Assembly (NCBI GenBank): GCA_001714685.2
Contig: MDTP02000068.1
Location: forward strand, 1-34,133
DNA length: 34,133 nt
Direction of reading: 5' to 3'
DNA from: Methanosarcina sp. Ant1
GTDB taxonomy: Archaea > Halobacteriota > Methanosarcinia > Methanosarcinales > Methanosarcinaceae
The notes below the pieces were generated by a model, which made no database searches, was not told the DNA's origin, and saw only the letters and a program-made list of their open reading frames with translations. Position numbers and translations under genes: made by a program. This document shows positions 10,314 to 26,739 of this stretch, in pieces. Each line of letters starts with the position of its first letter. The stretch's first letter is position 1.

Positions 10314-11762
10314 TTAGACTAAAAACTGACATACTTCCCACGCAAACTGTGGAGAAGTTTCTTCTCTGGTTGTACGTTTACTGAAAAGGGTACGGTCCAG
10401 GACAAGTCGAGGGGTATCAGTGCTCCCTTTCCCTGCATCTCTTTCTGCAGAGAATTGACCGCTGCCTTTAGGCGTCAACGCAATATTAAAGGCGGCGTTG
10501 ACATCGGCATGGTCAACGTGCCCGCAATGAGGGCACTCAAATTGCTTACAGTGTCGGTTGCCTCTATGTCCGCAGCGACTGCACTTTTTGCTAGTCGCAT
10601 GGGGATCAATATAAGCTACCTCTACCCCCCGCAACCTGGCCTTGTATTCAATAAATTGCTGGAGTTGATGAAAAGACCAGTTGTTCAGGGAGTATTCACA
10701 TGACCATAATTGTTTTTCGGCTTTGCTTTTAGTTTTGATGGAGTTTTTGTTAATTTCTTTATTTCTGCTTTTGTCTCCTTTTTGTTCCCTTTTTTTGTCT
10801 TCGCTTTTATTTTTCTCGTTTTCTCCTGCACCTCCAATCTTGCTGTTGAGTTTTCGGATGCCTTTAAGGTTTTCGAGTTTGATCCCGCACCCATTATACA
10901 GGGCTACATCCACAATCTTTCGGCTGATTTTATGGTTCAAGTCCTTTACAATATTCTTTTCCCTAATTTCTACAGCTTTTAGTTGTTTACGTTTGCCCAT
11001 ATTATAGAGCCGTTTTTTTATGTTCTCGTATTTTTTATGCGTATGGTAGCGCATTTTTCCTAACTTCCAAATTTTACCGGACTCGGGGTTTGCTACAACT
11101 GCAATATGTCCCCTGGTATTGCGGTCAACTCCTATATAGCGCCCGGAAATTTCGGGTTCTTCTTCAGGGAAGACAACTGCTACATAAACATAGAAGCTAT
11201 CGATTTCTATCTGGGAGATTTTTTTAAAGTTATTGGAAAAATGATAGTTAAGCAGAAGTTTCAGGCAAGGGATCATAAGGGTTCTCTCCTTCCTGTCGAC
11301 ACTGACCGCCCGAGAAGGTATGATCAATTTTACATTCTTTGCGGCTCTGAGGTCCTGGTTTCTAGAATATTTCCTGAGAATCTGGCCGGAAATAGTTGAC
11401 TTCAAGCCTATATGCTTGACATCCCCTGGAGAAAGAGGTCCAGACATTGGAAACGAATCAGGTACGGAAAGAGCATCTGGAGACTGAGGGACAGAAGAAG
11501 TAGTTGGAAGCTCGTGAGAAAACCCAGAAAAAGAAGCCGAGAACGAGGATGAAAACGAAGAAGGGGGAGAAGGAAGAGAAGGAAGAGAAGGAAGAGGAAA
11601 AACAGGGAAATGAGGGTCAGAAGAGATAGGTTTTTGTATGGGAGGCGGGTTAAGGCCTCGGTTTTGAGTCTGATGTTTGATACAAAACTCAACAACCTTT
11701 CGAGCCTTTCGAAGTTCCTCCGAAAAATCCCGATTGTGTTTGATTTTATAGGTAAGTAGCAT
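10314..11762 (-). CDS. tnpB: TnpB (IS200/IS605-type RNA-guided nuclease) with low-complexity insertions
   Basis: TnpB proteins are RNA-guided DNA nucleases carried by IS200/IS605 elements and are related to Cas12. The RuvC-like active site appears complete: D213 in GVDRNTRG, E297 in IKLENLKGIR and D420 in DHADVNAA. The zinc finger has C394-x2-C397 and C410-x2-C413. At 482 residues it is longer than usual, because of two insertions. Residues about 40-112 are Pro/Ser/Phe-rich with PSLPSLPSPP-type repeats, and residues about 310-348 are Lys/Glu/Asn-rich. Both are encoded by purine- or pyrimidine-rich microrepeats, so they probably arose by slippage. No TnpA transposase is nearby, so the element could move only if helped. 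The ATG at 11760-11762 follows GGAG. Confidence 0.9.
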   Translation of the reverse strand: MLLTYKIKHNRDFSEELRKARKVVEFCIKHQTQNRGLNPPPIQKPISSDPHFPVFPLPSLPSLPSPPSSFSSSFSASFSGFSHELPTTSSVPQSPDALSVPDSFPMSGPLSPGDVKHIGLKSTISGQILRKYSRNQDLRAAKNVKLIIPSRAVSVDRKERTLMIPCLKLLLNYHFSNNFKKISQIEIDSFYVYVAVVFPEEEPEISGRYIGVDRNTRGHIAVVANPESGKIWKLGKMRYHTHKKYENIKKRLYNMGKRKQLKAVEIREKNIVKDLNHKISRKIVDVALYNGCGIKLENLKGIRKLNSKIGGAGENEKNKSEDKKREQKGDKSRNKEINKNSIKTKSKAEKQLWSCEYSLNNWSFHQLQQFIEYKARLRGVEVAYIDPHATSKKCSRCGHRGNRHCKQFECPHCGHVDHADVNAAFNIALTPKGSGQFSAERDAGKGSTDTPRLVLDRTLFSKRTTREETSPQFAWEVCQFLV

Positions 11763-21374: not shown

Positions 21375-22037
21375 AGGCTAAAGACCCCTATTCATGGTAA
21401 TTCATGTTTAATGAGTTGATAATTCCTCTAATTTTTTCTCCATGTAATTAATATAGAACTTGCTTACCGAGTAATCGCCTTCAGATTAAATAAACTAATT
21501 TAGATAAAAATTGATTAAGTTATGTAGTATATATATAAAGAGAGTTATAAATGTTTTTCAACAAAATAAGTGGCTTTTAAGGCTTTTAATTGACTTTAAT
21601 TGAAAATTAGACCTTATTTATGTTGAAAGAATCTTATTTTTTCCTAATTAGTGAATTGCAGATTAAAGTTCCTGATCTTATTGAGATGTATAAAAAAGTA
21701 GGATATGTAAATTAAGTATAGAAGTCAGCGTGTTTTATTGACAGGGGATTACCCAGTTTTTCAAGATCTATTAATAGTAAGGAATAAACATTCTAGTCAT
21801 TTTATATAATGTAGAATTATATATTTGTTTGTACTTTCTGGCAATTAAAATTAAATCTGTTCCTCTCCAAAAGGAAACAAGTAACCAGAATAGCTTTTAA
21901 AATAATTGCCATGAGTAAAATACAGACTTGCGGAGTTGATGAAGAGTTTGATTAGAGAATTACACACTCTAATCTCATCTCCTCCAATATGCAAAATGAG
22001 TGTGGGAAGAATACAGTAAATCATGGAGGTAAATATA
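21375..22037 (+). promoter_or_regulatory. Unit 1 leader of the Gly/Cys-rich peptide array
   Basis: Homologous to the leaders of units 2 and 3 from about 21452 onward. It has a TATA box (TTTATATAAT, 21801-21810), a conserved TCTGTTCCTCTCCAAA block, and a stem-loop in which GATGA (21938-21942) pairs with TCATC (21975-21979) and GATTAGAG (21950-21957) pairs with CTCTAATC (21967-21974). TCATGGAGGT is the ribosome binding site. A degenerate relic of the 65-codon frame seen in unit 2 lies near 21555-21713 and ends in SELQIKVPDL...GYVN. Confidence 0.6.
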
Positions 22038-22196
22038 ATGAGTGGAAATTTTTTTAATTTCGGACGTAGACATGACTTCGGCGGATTCTATGGCGGTAGA
22101 TGTGGCGGTTTTGACGGTGGCTGTGGCTGTGGCGGACGCAGGTGGGACAGATGCCGTAGCTGGTTGGGCCGTTGTGGCCGCGGCTGGTGTGATTAA
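22038..22196 (+). CDS. Gly/Cys/Trp-rich micropeptide 1 (52 residues)
   Basis: The first of three related tiny genes. The 52-residue product is about one-third glycine, has six cysteines (C22, C29, C31, C39, C46, C51), three tryptophans and ten arginines, and no lysine. It shares the core G-C-G-C-G with the two other peptides. There is no signal peptide or membrane segment. GGAGGT lies nine bases before the ATG, in a context (CATGGAGG...ATG) that is almost the same in all three. The cysteines suggest metal or redox binding, but the function is unknown. It might also be a precursor that is modified, although no modifying enzyme is encoded nearby. Confidence 0.7.
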   Translation: MSGNFFNFGRRHDFGGFYGGRCGGFDGGCGCGGRRWDRCRSWLGRCGRGWCD

Positions 22197-22608
22197 TAAC
22201 TACTGAGCCTGAAAGAATTTTATTAAGTATTAAATGAAATAGCATCATAGCCATCTTTTCAAGGTAGGACGGACAAATTTCTGATAAATCTTCTTATCTT
22301 GAATTGGTGACTATTTATTTTTATTTTCCTATGAGTTACCAACTATATTTCTCGTGTTTTATAATGACTAATTGCTATGATAAAGATCTTATCATAAAAT
22401 CATATGAGAAAGAGAGAAAACTTCTCTGATTAAACTTGCACCTGAAGAGTATCAGCAGCTAGTACATCGATTCCAATGTATGTCACAAACGAAATCTTTG
22501 AATTTAGATAAAGAAGGATTAGTTATACATACTTGATAACTTCTTTTTTGATAACTTCTTTTTTGATAACTTCTTTTTTGATAACTTCTTTTTTGATAAC
22601 TTCTTTTT
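22197..22608 (+). other. Spacer after micropeptide 1
   Basis: It contains the 3' stem-loop of unit 1: ATAGCCATC (22247-22255) pairs with GGTGACTAT (22306-22314), with CAAG/CTTG inside. A frame at about 22423-22533 reads LIKLAPEEYQQLVHRF and ends in a stop; it looks like a protein fragment but I recognise no family. The end is filled by a 15-bp repeat. Confidence 0.4.
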
Positions 22609-22611
22609 TGA
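22536..22611 (+). repeat. 15-bp tandem repeat at the edge of the mptE copy
   Basis: ATAACTTCTTTTTTG is repeated five times without interruption and then runs into ATAATTGCAG. In intact mptE the matching place reads TTTTGTGATAATTGCAG, so the array appears to have grown by slippage from the break point of the duplicated gene. Confidence 0.85.
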
Positions 22612-23016
22612 TAATTGCAGACGACGGAACAGCCGCTGCCCTGATGGATACTGGTCGCGAGCCTGAAGTCATCTGTACCGACCCTGAAGGCAATTCATAA
22701 GCTGTTATTGAAAAAGAGATCCTGGCCTGCGAACTGGGCTCTATGTCCTGATCCATGCCCACGGGGACAATATCGATAAGCTGAAAAATACGTGCCCCAT
22801 TCAAACGCTTTATTGCAACTACTCAGGCAAGGTCTTTTGAAAAATGTACAATTTCGGCAGATTCAGTGATGGAGACAGATGTGTTTTTGTAGCCAGGAAG
22901 CTTGGAGCTTACAGTATCAAGCTGGCATGATTTTATTTTGAAGATCCCGATGTGAACCCGATCAAGAAAAAGAAGTTGAAGTGGGCAAAGAAATTGATGG
23001 GGATTCTAGAGTTTTA
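22609..23016 (+). pseudogene. Broken tandem copy of the mptE 3' half
   Basis: This stretch is closely similar in DNA to mptE from about 20965 to its stop codon. It reads IIADDGTAAALMDTG, then EPEVICTDPEGNS followed by a stop. Several single-base deletions and another stop occur before the KKKKLKWAKKLMGIL-type end. The first half of the gene is missing. It cannot make MptE. It shows that the neighbouring peptide unit was duplicated together with the end of mptE. Confidence 0.92.
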
Positions 23017-23095
23017 AAGGCAATATATGCATATTAAAAGAAATATAAGTATAATTTATAGACATTTATTCGTATTTTTATTCGTTGGCTGAATC

Positions 23096-23692
23096 GAGAA
23101 ACTTGATTGTTGAATACTCGTCCTTTATAAGGACATTTTGCCTTGAAAGAAAAAGACTTAAGTGATGATGTTTAGAAATAGAAAAAGTTATATAACTTTT
23201 TCAACTAAATGCGTGTTTTTAGAGGCCTTAAATTGGATTTTGTTAGAAAATAGAGCTTATAAATGCTATAGGGGTTATATTTTTTGCTTAAATAGTGAGT
23301 TGCAGACTTTTATTCCGGATTTATTGAGAGATTTAAAAGAATTAGGATTTGTAGATTAAATGTAAAAGTAAGTTTGTTTTACTGACAGACAGTTTACTCA
23401 CTTTTTCAAAGACTATTAATATTAAGGAAAAGTTATTCTAGGTCTTTTATATAATTTGCAATTATATATTTAATTGTATTTTCATGGAAATCAAATCTGT
23501 TCCTCTCCAAACGAAAATAAGTAGCCGGAATAATTTCTAAAAATAGCTGCCATGAGAGTACAGGGTGAACGAAGAGTTTGGAGATTACAAACTCAGTTCA
23601 CCTTCTTCATGCATAAAAAATAATAAGAGTATAAAAAATAATAAACCAATAATAAGAGTATAAAAAAATAATAAACCATGGAGGAAAATATT
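23096..23692 (+). promoter_or_regulatory. Unit 2 leader of the Gly/Cys-rich peptide array
   Basis: Homologous to the unit 1 and 3 leaders. The TATA box is TTATATA at 23447-23453, and the CTGTTCCTCTCCAAA block follows. The stem-loop is kept but with different bases: GGTGAAC (23564-23570) pairs with GTTCACC (23596-23602), and AGTTTG (23575-23580) pairs with CAAACT (23588-23593). A short ATAATAAGAGTATAAAAA repeat (about 23620-23680) and CATGGAGG precede the start. Confidence 0.6.
23162..23359 (+). CDS. Possible 65-residue protein inside the unit 2 leader
   Basis: An uninterrupted frame in unit 2 whose counterparts in units 1 and 3 are broken by stops. Its end (SELQTFIPDLLRDLKELGFVD) matches the unit 1 relic SELQIKVPDL...GYVN in length and at several residues, and some of those residues are kept through different codons, which suggests a coding past. 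No ribosome binding site or family is recognised. It is upstream of the proposed TATA box of the micropeptide. It is as likely to be a relic as a working gene. Confidence 0.3.
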   Translation: MMMFRNRKSYITFSTKCVFLEALNWILLENRAYKCYRGYIFCLNSELQTFIPDLLRDLKELGFVD

Positions 23693-23779
23693 ATGTGGGG
23701 ATGTAATCGGTGTAACTGGGGCTGTGGCAGAGACCGCTGGTGGGGTCGTGGCTGTGGCTGCGGATGGGGCAGGTGGTAA
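23693..23779 (+). CDS. Gly/Cys/Trp-rich micropeptide 2 (28 residues)
   Basis: The smallest of the three related genes. The 28-residue product has six tryptophans (2, 9, 16, 17, 25, 28), five cysteines (4, 7, 11, 21, 23), eight glycines, and arginine as its only basic residue. It shares G-C-G-C-G (20-24) with the other two. GGAGG lies ten bases before the ATG. So many Trp and Cys codons in so short a frame are improbable by chance, and the surrounding leader is conserved. The function is unknown. A conserved hairpin follows the stop codon. Confidence 0.65.
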   Translation: MWGCNRCNWGCGRDRWWGRGCGCGWGRW

Positions 23780-24035
23780 GAAAATAACCGAGCCTCAGGA
23801 CTACTCAGTATGAAATGAAACAGAATAATAGTCATCTTTTCAAGGCTAGGAAGACAATTTCGGATGGATTGTCTCGTCTTGAATTGATGGCTATATATTT
23901 TATTTCATAGGAGTTTGCAACTATACCCCTCATGTGTTTTAAGGCGAAAGATTTCTATTCAGGGTATTTCGGTGCAGCGCATTGGCAAGTCTCAAATTTG
24001 ATTCATAGGCGGTTTAATTCATAGGCAGAATAGAA
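23780..24035 (+). other. 3' region of unit 2 with conserved stem-loop
   Basis: ATAGTCATC (23828-23836) pairs with GATGGCTAT (23886-23894), TTCAAG (23839-23844) with CTTGAA (23878-23883), and GACAAT (23853-23858) with ATTGTC (23868-23873). The same architecture is found after micropeptide 1. It may be a terminator-like 3' end or a separate small RNA. The rest is spacer with a short TTCATAGGCGG/TTCATAGGCAG repeat near 24000-24023. Confidence 0.45.
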
Positions 24036-24672
24036 AACTTGCTTATCGAATATAGCCTTTTATAGGAATAATTTACTTGCGAAGAAAAAGGCGTAAGTAA
24101 CGATATTTAGAAATAGAAAGAGTAGTACAATTTTTTCAGCTAAATGCATGTATTTTGAGTCTCCAAATCGGCTCTAATTAGAAAAGAGAGCATATATCTA
24201 CTTTAGAAGCCTTATTTTTGCCTAAATATTAAATTGCAGACTAAAACTCCTGATTATAGCGAGCGATTTAAAAAAATGGAATTTTTACATTAAATATAAA
24301 AGTAAGCTTGTTTTTTTTAGCGTAGGATTATTCAGTTTTTCAATGACTATTAATATCAGGAGCCGTTATTCTAGTGATCTTATATATTTTAAAATTATAT
24401 ATTTAATTGTACATTCGGGCAATTAAAATCAAATTAGAATTAAATCTGATCCTCTCCAAACAAAAAGAGGTAAACAAAATAATTTTTAAAAATAATTGCT
24501 AGAATATAATACAGAATAGGGAGGGTTGATGAAGAATTTGATTAGAGAATTTTGTACACTCTAATCTTAAAAAGTTCATCTTCTCATATGTAAAAAGAGT
24601 GTGAAAAAATACATAAAAAAACGAATATGAAAAGATATTAGAAGAATAAAGTAAACCATGGAGGTAATTATA
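24036..24672 (+). promoter_or_regulatory. Unit 3 leader of the Gly/Cys-rich peptide array
   Basis: The third copy of the leader. The TATA box is TTATATAT at 24380-24387. The CTGATCCTCTCCAAA block is kept. The stem-loop is GATGAA (24528-24533) with TTCATC (24575-24580) and GATTAGAG (24540-24547) with CTCTAATC (24559-24566). CATGGAGGT is the ribosome binding site. The relic of the 65-codon frame (about 24106-24291) has internal stops. Confidence 0.6.
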
Positions 24673-24879
24673 ATGGGTGGTAGAGGACTTTTAGGTATTG
24701 GTGACTTCGGCGGAATATTTGGTGGAGCATGTGGCGGAGGCTGTGGCGGAGGCTGTGGCGGCTGGGACTGGGGACGTCGCAAAGGATGCGGCTGTGGTGA
24801 TGAGAAAAAAGGTTGCATCATAACTGCCGTTCGTGCCGGTTGCTTCAAAGGAGACAGCGATTGGGAAGGCTTCTGGTAA
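24673..24879 (+). CDS. Gly/Cys-rich micropeptide 3 (68 residues)
   Basis: The longest of the three. Residues 1-19 are glycine-rich with few charges. Residues 20-31 are a regular C-G-G-G-C-G-G-G-C-G-G-W repeat, and K-G-C-G-C-G at 37-42 is the family core. The C-terminal third (CIITAVRAGC; DWEGFW) is unique to this member. It has seven cysteines in all: 20, 24, 28, 39, 41, 48 and 57. GGAGGT lies nine bases before the ATG. A role in metal or thiol chemistry is possible but unproven. An 11-bp inverted repeat spans its stop codon. Confidence 0.7.
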   Translation: MGGRGLLGIGDFGGIFGGACGGGCGGGCGGWDWGRRKGCGCGDEKKGCIITAVRAGCFKGDSDWEGFW

Positions 24880-24912
24880 AGAGCGGTTACTTCGGTAACG
24901 ATTCCAATCGCT
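24856..24912 (+). terminator. Inverted repeat across the stop codon of micropeptide 3
   Basis: AGCGATTGGGAA (24856-24867) pairs with TTCCAATCGCT (24902-24912) with one bulged base. Inside it GTTAC and GTAAC enclose a TTCG tetraloop closed by C-G. The structure could end or protect the transcript. Confidence 0.45.
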
Positions 24913-25719: not shown

Positions 25720-26178
25720 TCAGTTACATTTTTTTGCTTTTTTTGCTTTTTTTATATATGCCCAGATCTCATCAATCTCTACGCTCTTAAGGTCAAGGTT
25801 TCTGATGAAATAATTTGTAACTTCTTTTGAATTAGTTCCTGCAATCTCTACCCATTTGCAAATTGTGTTTTTACTATGTCCAGTAGCTCTTGCAACTCCA
25901 CGAATACTTCCTTTTTCAGGGATCATAGCCAATGTCCTTAGAACTTCTTCATCAGAAGTATTGAGTCCAAAAAAAACTGTATCCTTTGTTTCACTAAAAC
26001 AAGATTTGCAGGTTTTACATTTAAGAAGCGCATGATTATTTTTACCATATCTTTCTTTAAGGACTACATTCTCGTGATTTTTAATTCCATAATCAGGACA
26101 ATCTTTATTCCAGCAACAAAACTGTGAGAAATCTATTTCAGAAGTAATTTCAAGCCCCCCAAATAATAATAGGATCCG
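25720..26178 (-). pseudogene. IS1-family transposase fragment
   Basis: The minus-strand frame is open over 152 codons. It reads DFSQFCCWNKDCPDYGIKNHENVVL as the zinc region (given here only by its C-C...C and CKTCKSC cysteines), then GLNTSDEEVLRTLAMIPEKG, RGVARATGHSKNTICKWV as the helix-turn-helix, and VEIDEIWAYIKK with the first catalytic Asp. That is the N-terminal half of an archaeal IS1-type transposase. After it the frame runs into an AAAAAAAGC microrepeat and stops, so the remaining catalytic residues are missing. No clear initiator codon or terminal repeats are seen. It is a dead remnant. Confidence 0.82.
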
Positions 26179-26739
26179 CTATATATAAAAATAAGTCAAT
26201 AACTTGGGGACACGACTCGTTTTTTATTTTGAGAAATTTACGGTTCCTAGTAATGTTTGATACCATCTCGAAGCAGCTTGAATGTCATCTCCTGCATTTC
26301 GGATACGAAAAACTTTTTAAGGCAACTATAGATTAAACTGTGAGTTTCTCTGTGGTACTTATTTCGAACTTAATAGCTTAAGGCCGAACCCTAATTTTTC
26401 TTCAGGAAAATGGCCTTTAAGGTACTATTAAGTCCTAAAGGAAAGCTTCTCGGAAGAGTGCTACAACCATCACTTATCAAGACATAAACGTAACCTGAGT
26501 TTAACCAGATAGTCCCAATAGTATAACTATATATACATGAAACTTATTAACCAGAACATCCCTATGTAAAAGTCTTAAACTAGCTCCTGCAGTTTGAGCT
26601 GATTTATGAATATTTTAAGTTTATCAAGATTAATTCATTGTCAAAACTTATCCATTGTCAAGATTATATCTATTTACCTATTACGATTCTTCCGTATTTG
26701 AATGAATAATTATTATTGAACCTGAATGGTGAGGACAAC
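26179..26739. other. Intergenic region before the DUF106 gene
   Basis: About 560 bases without a gene, AT-rich, with weak repeats such as AAACTTATCCATTGTCAAGATTA-type near 26620-26670 (TTGTCAA and ATCCATTGTCAA recur). The promoter of the DUF106-cmk pair should lie near its end. Nothing else is recognised. Confidence 0.4.

Follow-up and report, generated by a model that had tools for sequence, protein, structure and literature searches.

The stretch of DNA analysed here (the window) comprises 34,133 nucleotides (nt) of Methanosarcina sp. Ant1, contig MDTP02000068.1, and carries three very short genes on the plus strand, each of which follows a TATA box, a leader with a TCTCCAAA block, a hairpin and a (C)CATGGAGG ribosome binding site, as an earlier note on this DNA had claimed. 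Sequence comparison indicates that the set is a Methanosarcina-specific multigene family defined by its leader, and that its peptides are translated and constrained. The array lies far beyond chance because related units of promoter, leader and open reading frame (ORF) recur in most Methanosarcina genomes. Since nothing matched among known RNA or protein families and none of the known kinds of system was found to share its distinguishing features, the family is, by the comparisons made, rated as new in kind. The idea that the leader is constrained while the peptide diversifies was borne out by a covarying helix, P1, and a shared promoter, compared to peptide classes that do not align.

The P1 helix occupies the first ~95 nt of the leader and encloses a variable inner hairpin. 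Two covariance models, R1 and R2, were built because plain MAFFT placed the gaps in P1 wrongly when both leader types were mixed; the seed genes of R2 were selected through a composition filter. Among 11 closely related leaders, 96.5% of P1 cells were found to be paired, compared to 40-46% in the slid control. When 30 leaders of all classes were taken together, 90.7% of P1 cells were paired and compensatory change was found in 10 of 14 pairs. The covariation score of these 30 leaders was 0.310, compared to 0.224 +/- 0.015 for shuffled leaders (none of 500 shuffles reached the score) and at most 0.121 for the slid control, which is a partial guard against the dependence of the alignment on author-chosen anchors and the inflation of such scores by species kinship. 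P1 starts approximately 27-30 nt past the beginning of the TATA box and so probably opens the transcript at its 5' end. Two more hairpins, P3 and one in the 3' region, were visible on reading the sequences; the inner stem of P3 was nearly invariant in the alignment and was left out of the covariation evidence. Matches of R1 and R2 on the reverse strand were artefacts of the palindromic P1 stem. The Rfam search gave no family, only a spurious match to mir-6302 (E 0.23, 23 bits compared to a threshold of 90). The leaders point to a candidate new structured RNA family with a covarying helix.

The promoter common to all classes is TTTTCAA.GACTATT(T)AAT..TAAG......TTATTCTA.....TTATATAA, and exact matches to GTTATTCTNNNNNTTTTATATAAT occurred almost only at micropeptide loci. 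The simplest reading of the shared promoter would be a dedicated regulator. Just past the TATA box of many type A leaders, not all, there is an inverted TATA-like dyad, TATATAAT-N5-ATTATATA (window 23448-23468, for example), which might act as an operator or as a divergent promoter. In about nine species, the same promoter and a P1-like leader precede a secreted protein of ~110 amino acids (aa; MGKQ...) with GYxxGY repeats and a signal peptide judged by eye. The loci of this Gly/Tyr-repeat protein (L166-L176; in L169, for example, 1909-2002 with the ORF that follows) were matched by R2 at E 4e-8 to 0.3, its orthologues visibly bear the promoter motif, and Pfam gave only a sub-threshold Yae1_N match in one protein. 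The structural or secreted peptide that the earlier note had considered gains indirect support from this protein on the shared module. Weak R2 matches with partial promoter motifs were also seen ahead of ordinary-looking genes at L146, L150, L153 and L155, which are possibly further members of the regulon or chance.

A DNA search with unit 2 gave matches in 25 of 31 Methanosarcina genomes, and R2 matched the promoter-leader module in 24 of the 31 species genomes and nowhere in the 81 genomes that represent 13 other genera of the family. No match came from plasmid, phage or viral collections. A named-genome scan returned only two contigs of Methanosarcina metagenome-assembled genomes, low-complexity filtering having probably removed others. 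The genome of the window (G000; 4.29 Mb in 342 contigs, numbered C, with excised loci numbered L) has further copies on C102 (a 31-aa gene) and on C72 (a 69-aa class B gene and, at 514-604 on the plus strand of L010, an orphan promoter and leader with no Shine-Dalgarno (SD) site or ORF, apparently truncated). On C102, a secreted Cys-repeat protein with an N-terminus like the MGKQ... type (L009:6926-7396) lies 200 bp after the micropeptide gene. On C61 (L011, 2840-3760), a related promoter precedes MAFGLPAFKFNFNIGQVFALMSGINANFCLEF and three tandem MVNIIWFK/MALNVIWFK peptides, a plan that recurs in genome G002 (L149). The minus strand of L010 at ~1200-1430 carries a class B leader enlarged by alternating GGTATGAATTCTCCAA(ATGCAAA) repeat units.

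That the frames are coding was found by comparing synonymous with non-synonymous change, a check the earlier note had proposed. In 19 pairs of orthologues or tandem copies, the ratio of non-synonymous to synonymous change (pN/pS) was 0.34 in frame compared to 1.04 and 0.96 in the other two frames, showing purifying selection in frame; differences were in excess at third codon positions (81 of 167, p 5e-5), and insertions and deletions preserved the reading frame. The SD site and ORF were also found multiplied within single transcripts with no new leader, as four class D copies and three of class C in L080 and as pairs in L071, L084 and L131. This multiplication argues that the peptide itself is a product, and its dose seems to be under selection.

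The peptides behind the one leader fall into classes between which no alignment could be made by eye: W/G/C/R peptides (class A, MWFGNCGWGGCGGWGWRRWRRCGWGGCGWW), Gly/Cys peptides with a TAVRA motif (class B), Gly/aromatic/Lys peptides (class C, MFGFFGGFRDFDRFKCGCGGWGGGC...), Y-rich peptides (class D, MGYFTLYYSNYKVVYERTKLYMRARW) and F-rich peptides (class E, MFFFPFKFFSFKFFPFRFRHGFRGFGCC, MFDQFFINFLCQYFDQYFNFW), the swapped classes also being listed as F/K/R and F/N/Q forms. The three window peptides, grouped by the earlier note as Gly/Cys/Trp-rich, are not one peptide family, and belong to a superfamily set by promoter and leader. A Gly/Cys signature fails as its mark, since its members include F-, Y- and W-rich forms that lack it. 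Composition was examined in genes defined by the leader alone. Of 81 leaders, 78 led to an SD site with an ORF, a median of 143 nt downstream, giving 77 unique ORFs, of which 74 were of 95 aa or less (median 32; peptides of 17-81 residues). The aromatic fraction was 0.248 and the Cys fraction 0.111, compared to 0.125 and 0.032, respectively, in control SD-ORFs of the same loci (p ~1e-16 for each), in statistics where species are not independent, the R2 seeds are composition-filtered and the wrong ATG was used for the L079 ORF, whose next ATG gives a W-rich peptide (MWRYGNGWGHWGYWCRWGHCGG...). Loci matched by the model only (L136, L142, L147, L149, L151, L154) also gave short aromatic-rich peptides. 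For the most part, the peptides do not have the character of classical transmembrane hydrophobic helices.

The absence of a described family, as the earlier note had supposed, was confirmed in Rfam, Pfam, NCBIfam and PDB: Pfam for the three window peptides, NCBIfam for nine peptides and the PDB sequence search gave no match, and AlphaFold on a class B peptide gave a pLDDT (its per-residue confidence) of 45 and no confident fold. We take the class B sequence GCFITAVRAG to recall a CFI-box-CTERM-like motif, C-F-I-x-T-A, for which no NCBIfam match was obtained even at E 10. A literature search, with subscription papers outside its scope, found no description of the family. In Methanosarcina mazei, ribosome profiling and peptidomics have revealed hundreds of translated small ORFs (314 sORFs), some conserved in the genus (PMC11456600). 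Those small proteins are likewise genus-restricted, up to 70 aa long and often made from stand-alone transcripts, at least one with conserved cysteines; in contrast, the searched main-text passages of that study mention neither a promoter- and leader-defined family nor a leader with covariation, nor any aromatic/Gly/Cys class.

The features of the three window units are listed below. The unit size of about 0.85 kb was confirmed, but not as a repeat spacing, since the starts are 1.65 kb and 0.98 kb apart; the spacing exceeds the unit size because a decayed copy of the mptE 3' half and five 15-bp repeats separate units 1 and 2. The leaders are ~210-270 nt long and are followed in all three units by GGAGG 8 nt before the ATG. 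An additional in-frame ATG lies 15 nt upstream of the start, within CATGGAGG, in all three; in other species this triplet is TTG, GTG, CTG or ACG, which marks the downstream ATG, 8 nt after GGAGG, as the start that is conserved.

Features of the three micropeptide units in the window (positions are those of the whole stretch)
Feature	Positions	Strand	Evidence or remark
Unit 1 promoter, TTTTTCAAG.TCTATTAATAGTAAGGA......ATTCTA.....TTATATAA	21757..21812	+	Pattern search; element common to all classes and species
Unit 1 P1 leader RNA element, long hairpin closing first ~95 nt of transcript	21828..21922	+	R2 99.6 bits, E 4.5e-17; covariation
Unit 1 second hairpin P3	21931..21985	+	Read from sequence and alignment
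Unit 1 Shine-Dalgarno GGAGG	22025..22029	+	
Micropeptide 1, 52 aa	22038..22196	+	
Unit 1 3' hairpin, ATAGCCATC..TTCAAG / CTTGAATTGGTGACTAT, then T-rich run	22246..22316	+	Same plan in other 3' regions
Five 15-bp tandem repeats TTGATAACTTCTTTT	22533..22614	+	Exactly at duplication junction
Decayed duplicate of mptE 3' half, brought by segmental duplication	22600..23019	+	66% identity, stops present
Unit 2 promoter	23402..23455	+	Zero-mismatch pattern match 23432-23455
Unit 2 P1 leader RNA element	23472..23563	+	R1 63 bits, E 2.7e-10; R2 E 7.4e-6
Unit 2 second hairpin P3, GGTGAAC..GAGTTTG / CAAACTC..GTTCACC	23563..23602	+	Read from sequence
Unit 2 Shine-Dalgarno GGAGG	23680..23684	+	
Micropeptide 2, 28 aa	23693..23779	+	
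Unit 2 3' hairpin	23828..23896	+	
Unit 3 promoter	24336..24389	+	Pattern search, promoter alignment
Unit 3 P1 leader RNA element, 11-nt insertion in 5' arm	24406..24511	+	R2 E 4.7e-7
Unit 3 second hairpin P3	24519..24585	+	Read from sequence
Unit 3 Shine-Dalgarno GGAGG	24660..24664	+	
Micropeptide 3, 68 aa, with class B TAVRA motif	24673..24879	+	

The mptE fragment and the junction repeats between the units indicate that the array grew by segmental duplication carrying part of mptE. Decayed mptE pieces accompany unit copies elsewhere as well (genomes G002, G003, G004, G005, G026 and G028), which suggests recurrent segmental duplication or recombination at the mptE-side locus. The genes of most species are gathered in an island straight after ileS-mptE, which often ends at an AAA_14/DUF4143 ATPase gene. 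This ATPase (L119:3725-5089, L083:3439-4767 and others) matches the PADLOC candidate defence family PDC-S01. Micropeptide genes are absent from G013, G015 and G007, and in G013 and G015 the ATPase gene nevertheless adjoins mptE, which indicates ancestral synteny; the ATPase was accordingly set aside as a functional partner. Elsewhere in the window, a stretch of ~470 bp at 25746-26216 without long ORFs recurs with 73-88% identity on several further contigs of this genome and is probably a degraded mobile element, and a minus-strand ORF at 10314-11762 resembles a TnpB/OrfB-type transposon protein with zinc-finger CxxC motifs.

In predicted folding of 36 units, the leaders were more structured than shuffled ones (mean z -1.7), and the SD site was unpaired at a mean of 0.51 compared to 0.34 in shuffled leaders, the predicted accessibility in the three window units being slightly below shuffled. 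Given the mean above shuffled, SD sequestration was rejected as a general mechanism, and constitutive sequestration of the ribosome site is unlikely to be a device of general use. Pairing between the TCTCCAAA block and GGAGG was likewise rejected, as the block varies and the SD shows no matching change. A 5' structure that stabilises the message or binds a regulator seems the more likely. In a test for attenuation, no regulated gene was found directly downstream, where 3' hairpins, more micropeptide genes or unrelated genes follow; this, the multiplied ORF with its SD and the mean predicted SD accessibility speak against the translation-controlled leader peptide that had been proposed.

The explanation that we tentatively prefer, at a little short of an even chance, is that of a leader-defined regulon of aromatic/Cys 'sticker' peptides that act by composition at the membrane or envelope. 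The comparisons show a dedicated promoter driving an mRNA in which the first ~95 nt form the covarying P1 hairpin, with GGAGG and an ORF of 17-81 residues under purifying selection a median of 143 nt further on. Whole peptide classes are exchanged behind the retained leader, yet the peptides stay short, rich in aromatic residues and usually supplied with Cys, and units multiply both by segmental duplication and by SD-ORF multiplication within one transcript. On the proposed explanation, a regulator would turn the regulon on, and the P1 hairpin, with the 3' hairpin, may stabilise the message. The cell would make much small, mostly cationic, aromatic- and often thiol-rich peptide that acts by composition, through multivalent aromatic, Arg/Lys and Cys contacts, and needs neither a fold nor an active site. 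Its most likely place of action is put at the membrane or cell envelope because the module also drives the secreted Gly/Tyr-repeat protein. Composition that outlasts sequence, multiplication for dose, the lack of a confident fold and a regulon shared with an envelope protein point to a material-like or membrane-active role more readily than to an enzyme, a specific ligand or a repressed toxin. Several points weigh against this explanation. The micropeptides have no signal peptide, and stabilisation by the hairpins is only an idea. Moreover, composition is partly confounded by the filtered R2 seeds and the kinship of the species, and not every peptide conforms: Cys is missing from some and Gly from some, and a few are neutral or acidic.

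The details of bacterial type I toxin-antitoxin loci and of Trp-rich antimicrobial peptides used in the following comparisons are general background. Of the rival explanations, the one that survives best, while still rather improbable, is that the peptides are membrane-active, type I toxin-like products of structured mRNAs silenced by an unseen antisense RNA, the leader being kept as the carrier of control. The peptides are very short, aromatic and often cationic, and the AAA_14/DUF4143 gene that matches PDC-S01 flanks them, although it adjoins mptE even without micropeptides. Bacterial type I loci (reviewed in PMC8309996) share with the family tiny peptides, long structured leaders and multicopy paralogues, here in tandem and restricted to one lineage, with divergent peptides behind a conserved RNA. 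In contrast to such loci, the SD is not predicted to be sequestered here, leaderless multiplication of SD and ORF within a transcript raises the dose, and many peptides are Gly/Cys/Trp-rich and not hydrophobic helices. A sequence scan of the 36 units for antisense TATA-like sites gave only a weak excess, two bins having such sites in 10 units each compared to 3.5-4.3 expected, and no antitoxin RNA was found.

Metal- or thiol-responsive peptides, serving in metal buffering or redox, are an unlikely explanation. Methanogens have a high metal and thiol demand, and the raised Cys fraction and the CxC and GCGCG runs would suit such a role. However, Cys is absent from several of the peptides that follow this leader (MAFLNIYYSNVKFYYESTKLYIKAWW, for example), CxxC spacing is not conserved across classes, and no fold was predicted. 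Forms with no Gly or Cys signature mean that metal or thiol binding, one role offered by the earlier note, cannot be the general one.

A reading in which the RNA, regulatory or dual-function, is the chief product and the ORF secondary is given still less credence. P1 is the most conserved and covarying part, and the orphan leader of the same genome (C72:514-604) has no ORF, but the purifying selection in frame, the SD-ORF copies without a leader and the ordinary secreted protein driven by the module argue otherwise. Tandem precursors are common in loci for ribosomally synthesised and post-translationally modified peptides (RiPPs) and antimicrobial peptides. A RiPP or archaeocin precursor or antimicrobial array is equally improbable here: the short, cationic Trp/Arg/Cys-rich sequences of one class resemble Trp-rich antimicrobial peptides (reviewed in PMC6017362), but other classes are Y-, F- or Gly/Cys-rich, no conserved N-terminal leader peptide was found, no modification, export or immunity gene was seen in the island between mptE and AAA_14, and viral, phage and plasmid collections gave no match.

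The high-glycine-tyrosine keratin-associated proteins of animals are multigene, short and Gly/aromatic/Cys-rich, with composition kept while sequence drifts; the resemblance is at the level of composition and serves as a lead only. Placement of the family among toxin-like or structural small proteins is conceivable. It is possible, if doubtful, that this is a leader-defined micropeptide regulon with composition-selected exchangeable cargo, perhaps envelope or condensate material, or else a first archaeal type I-like toxin family.

These findings bring important methane-producing archaea a candidate new RNA family, together with dozens of genes that are mostly unlisted (two in G009), and they offer a clear case in which regulation is kept while one peptide product gives way to another within a single genus. 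Many unannotated Methanosarcina genes may share one regulated function, and because promoter and leader delimit the set, finding one regulator could reveal the role of the whole family.

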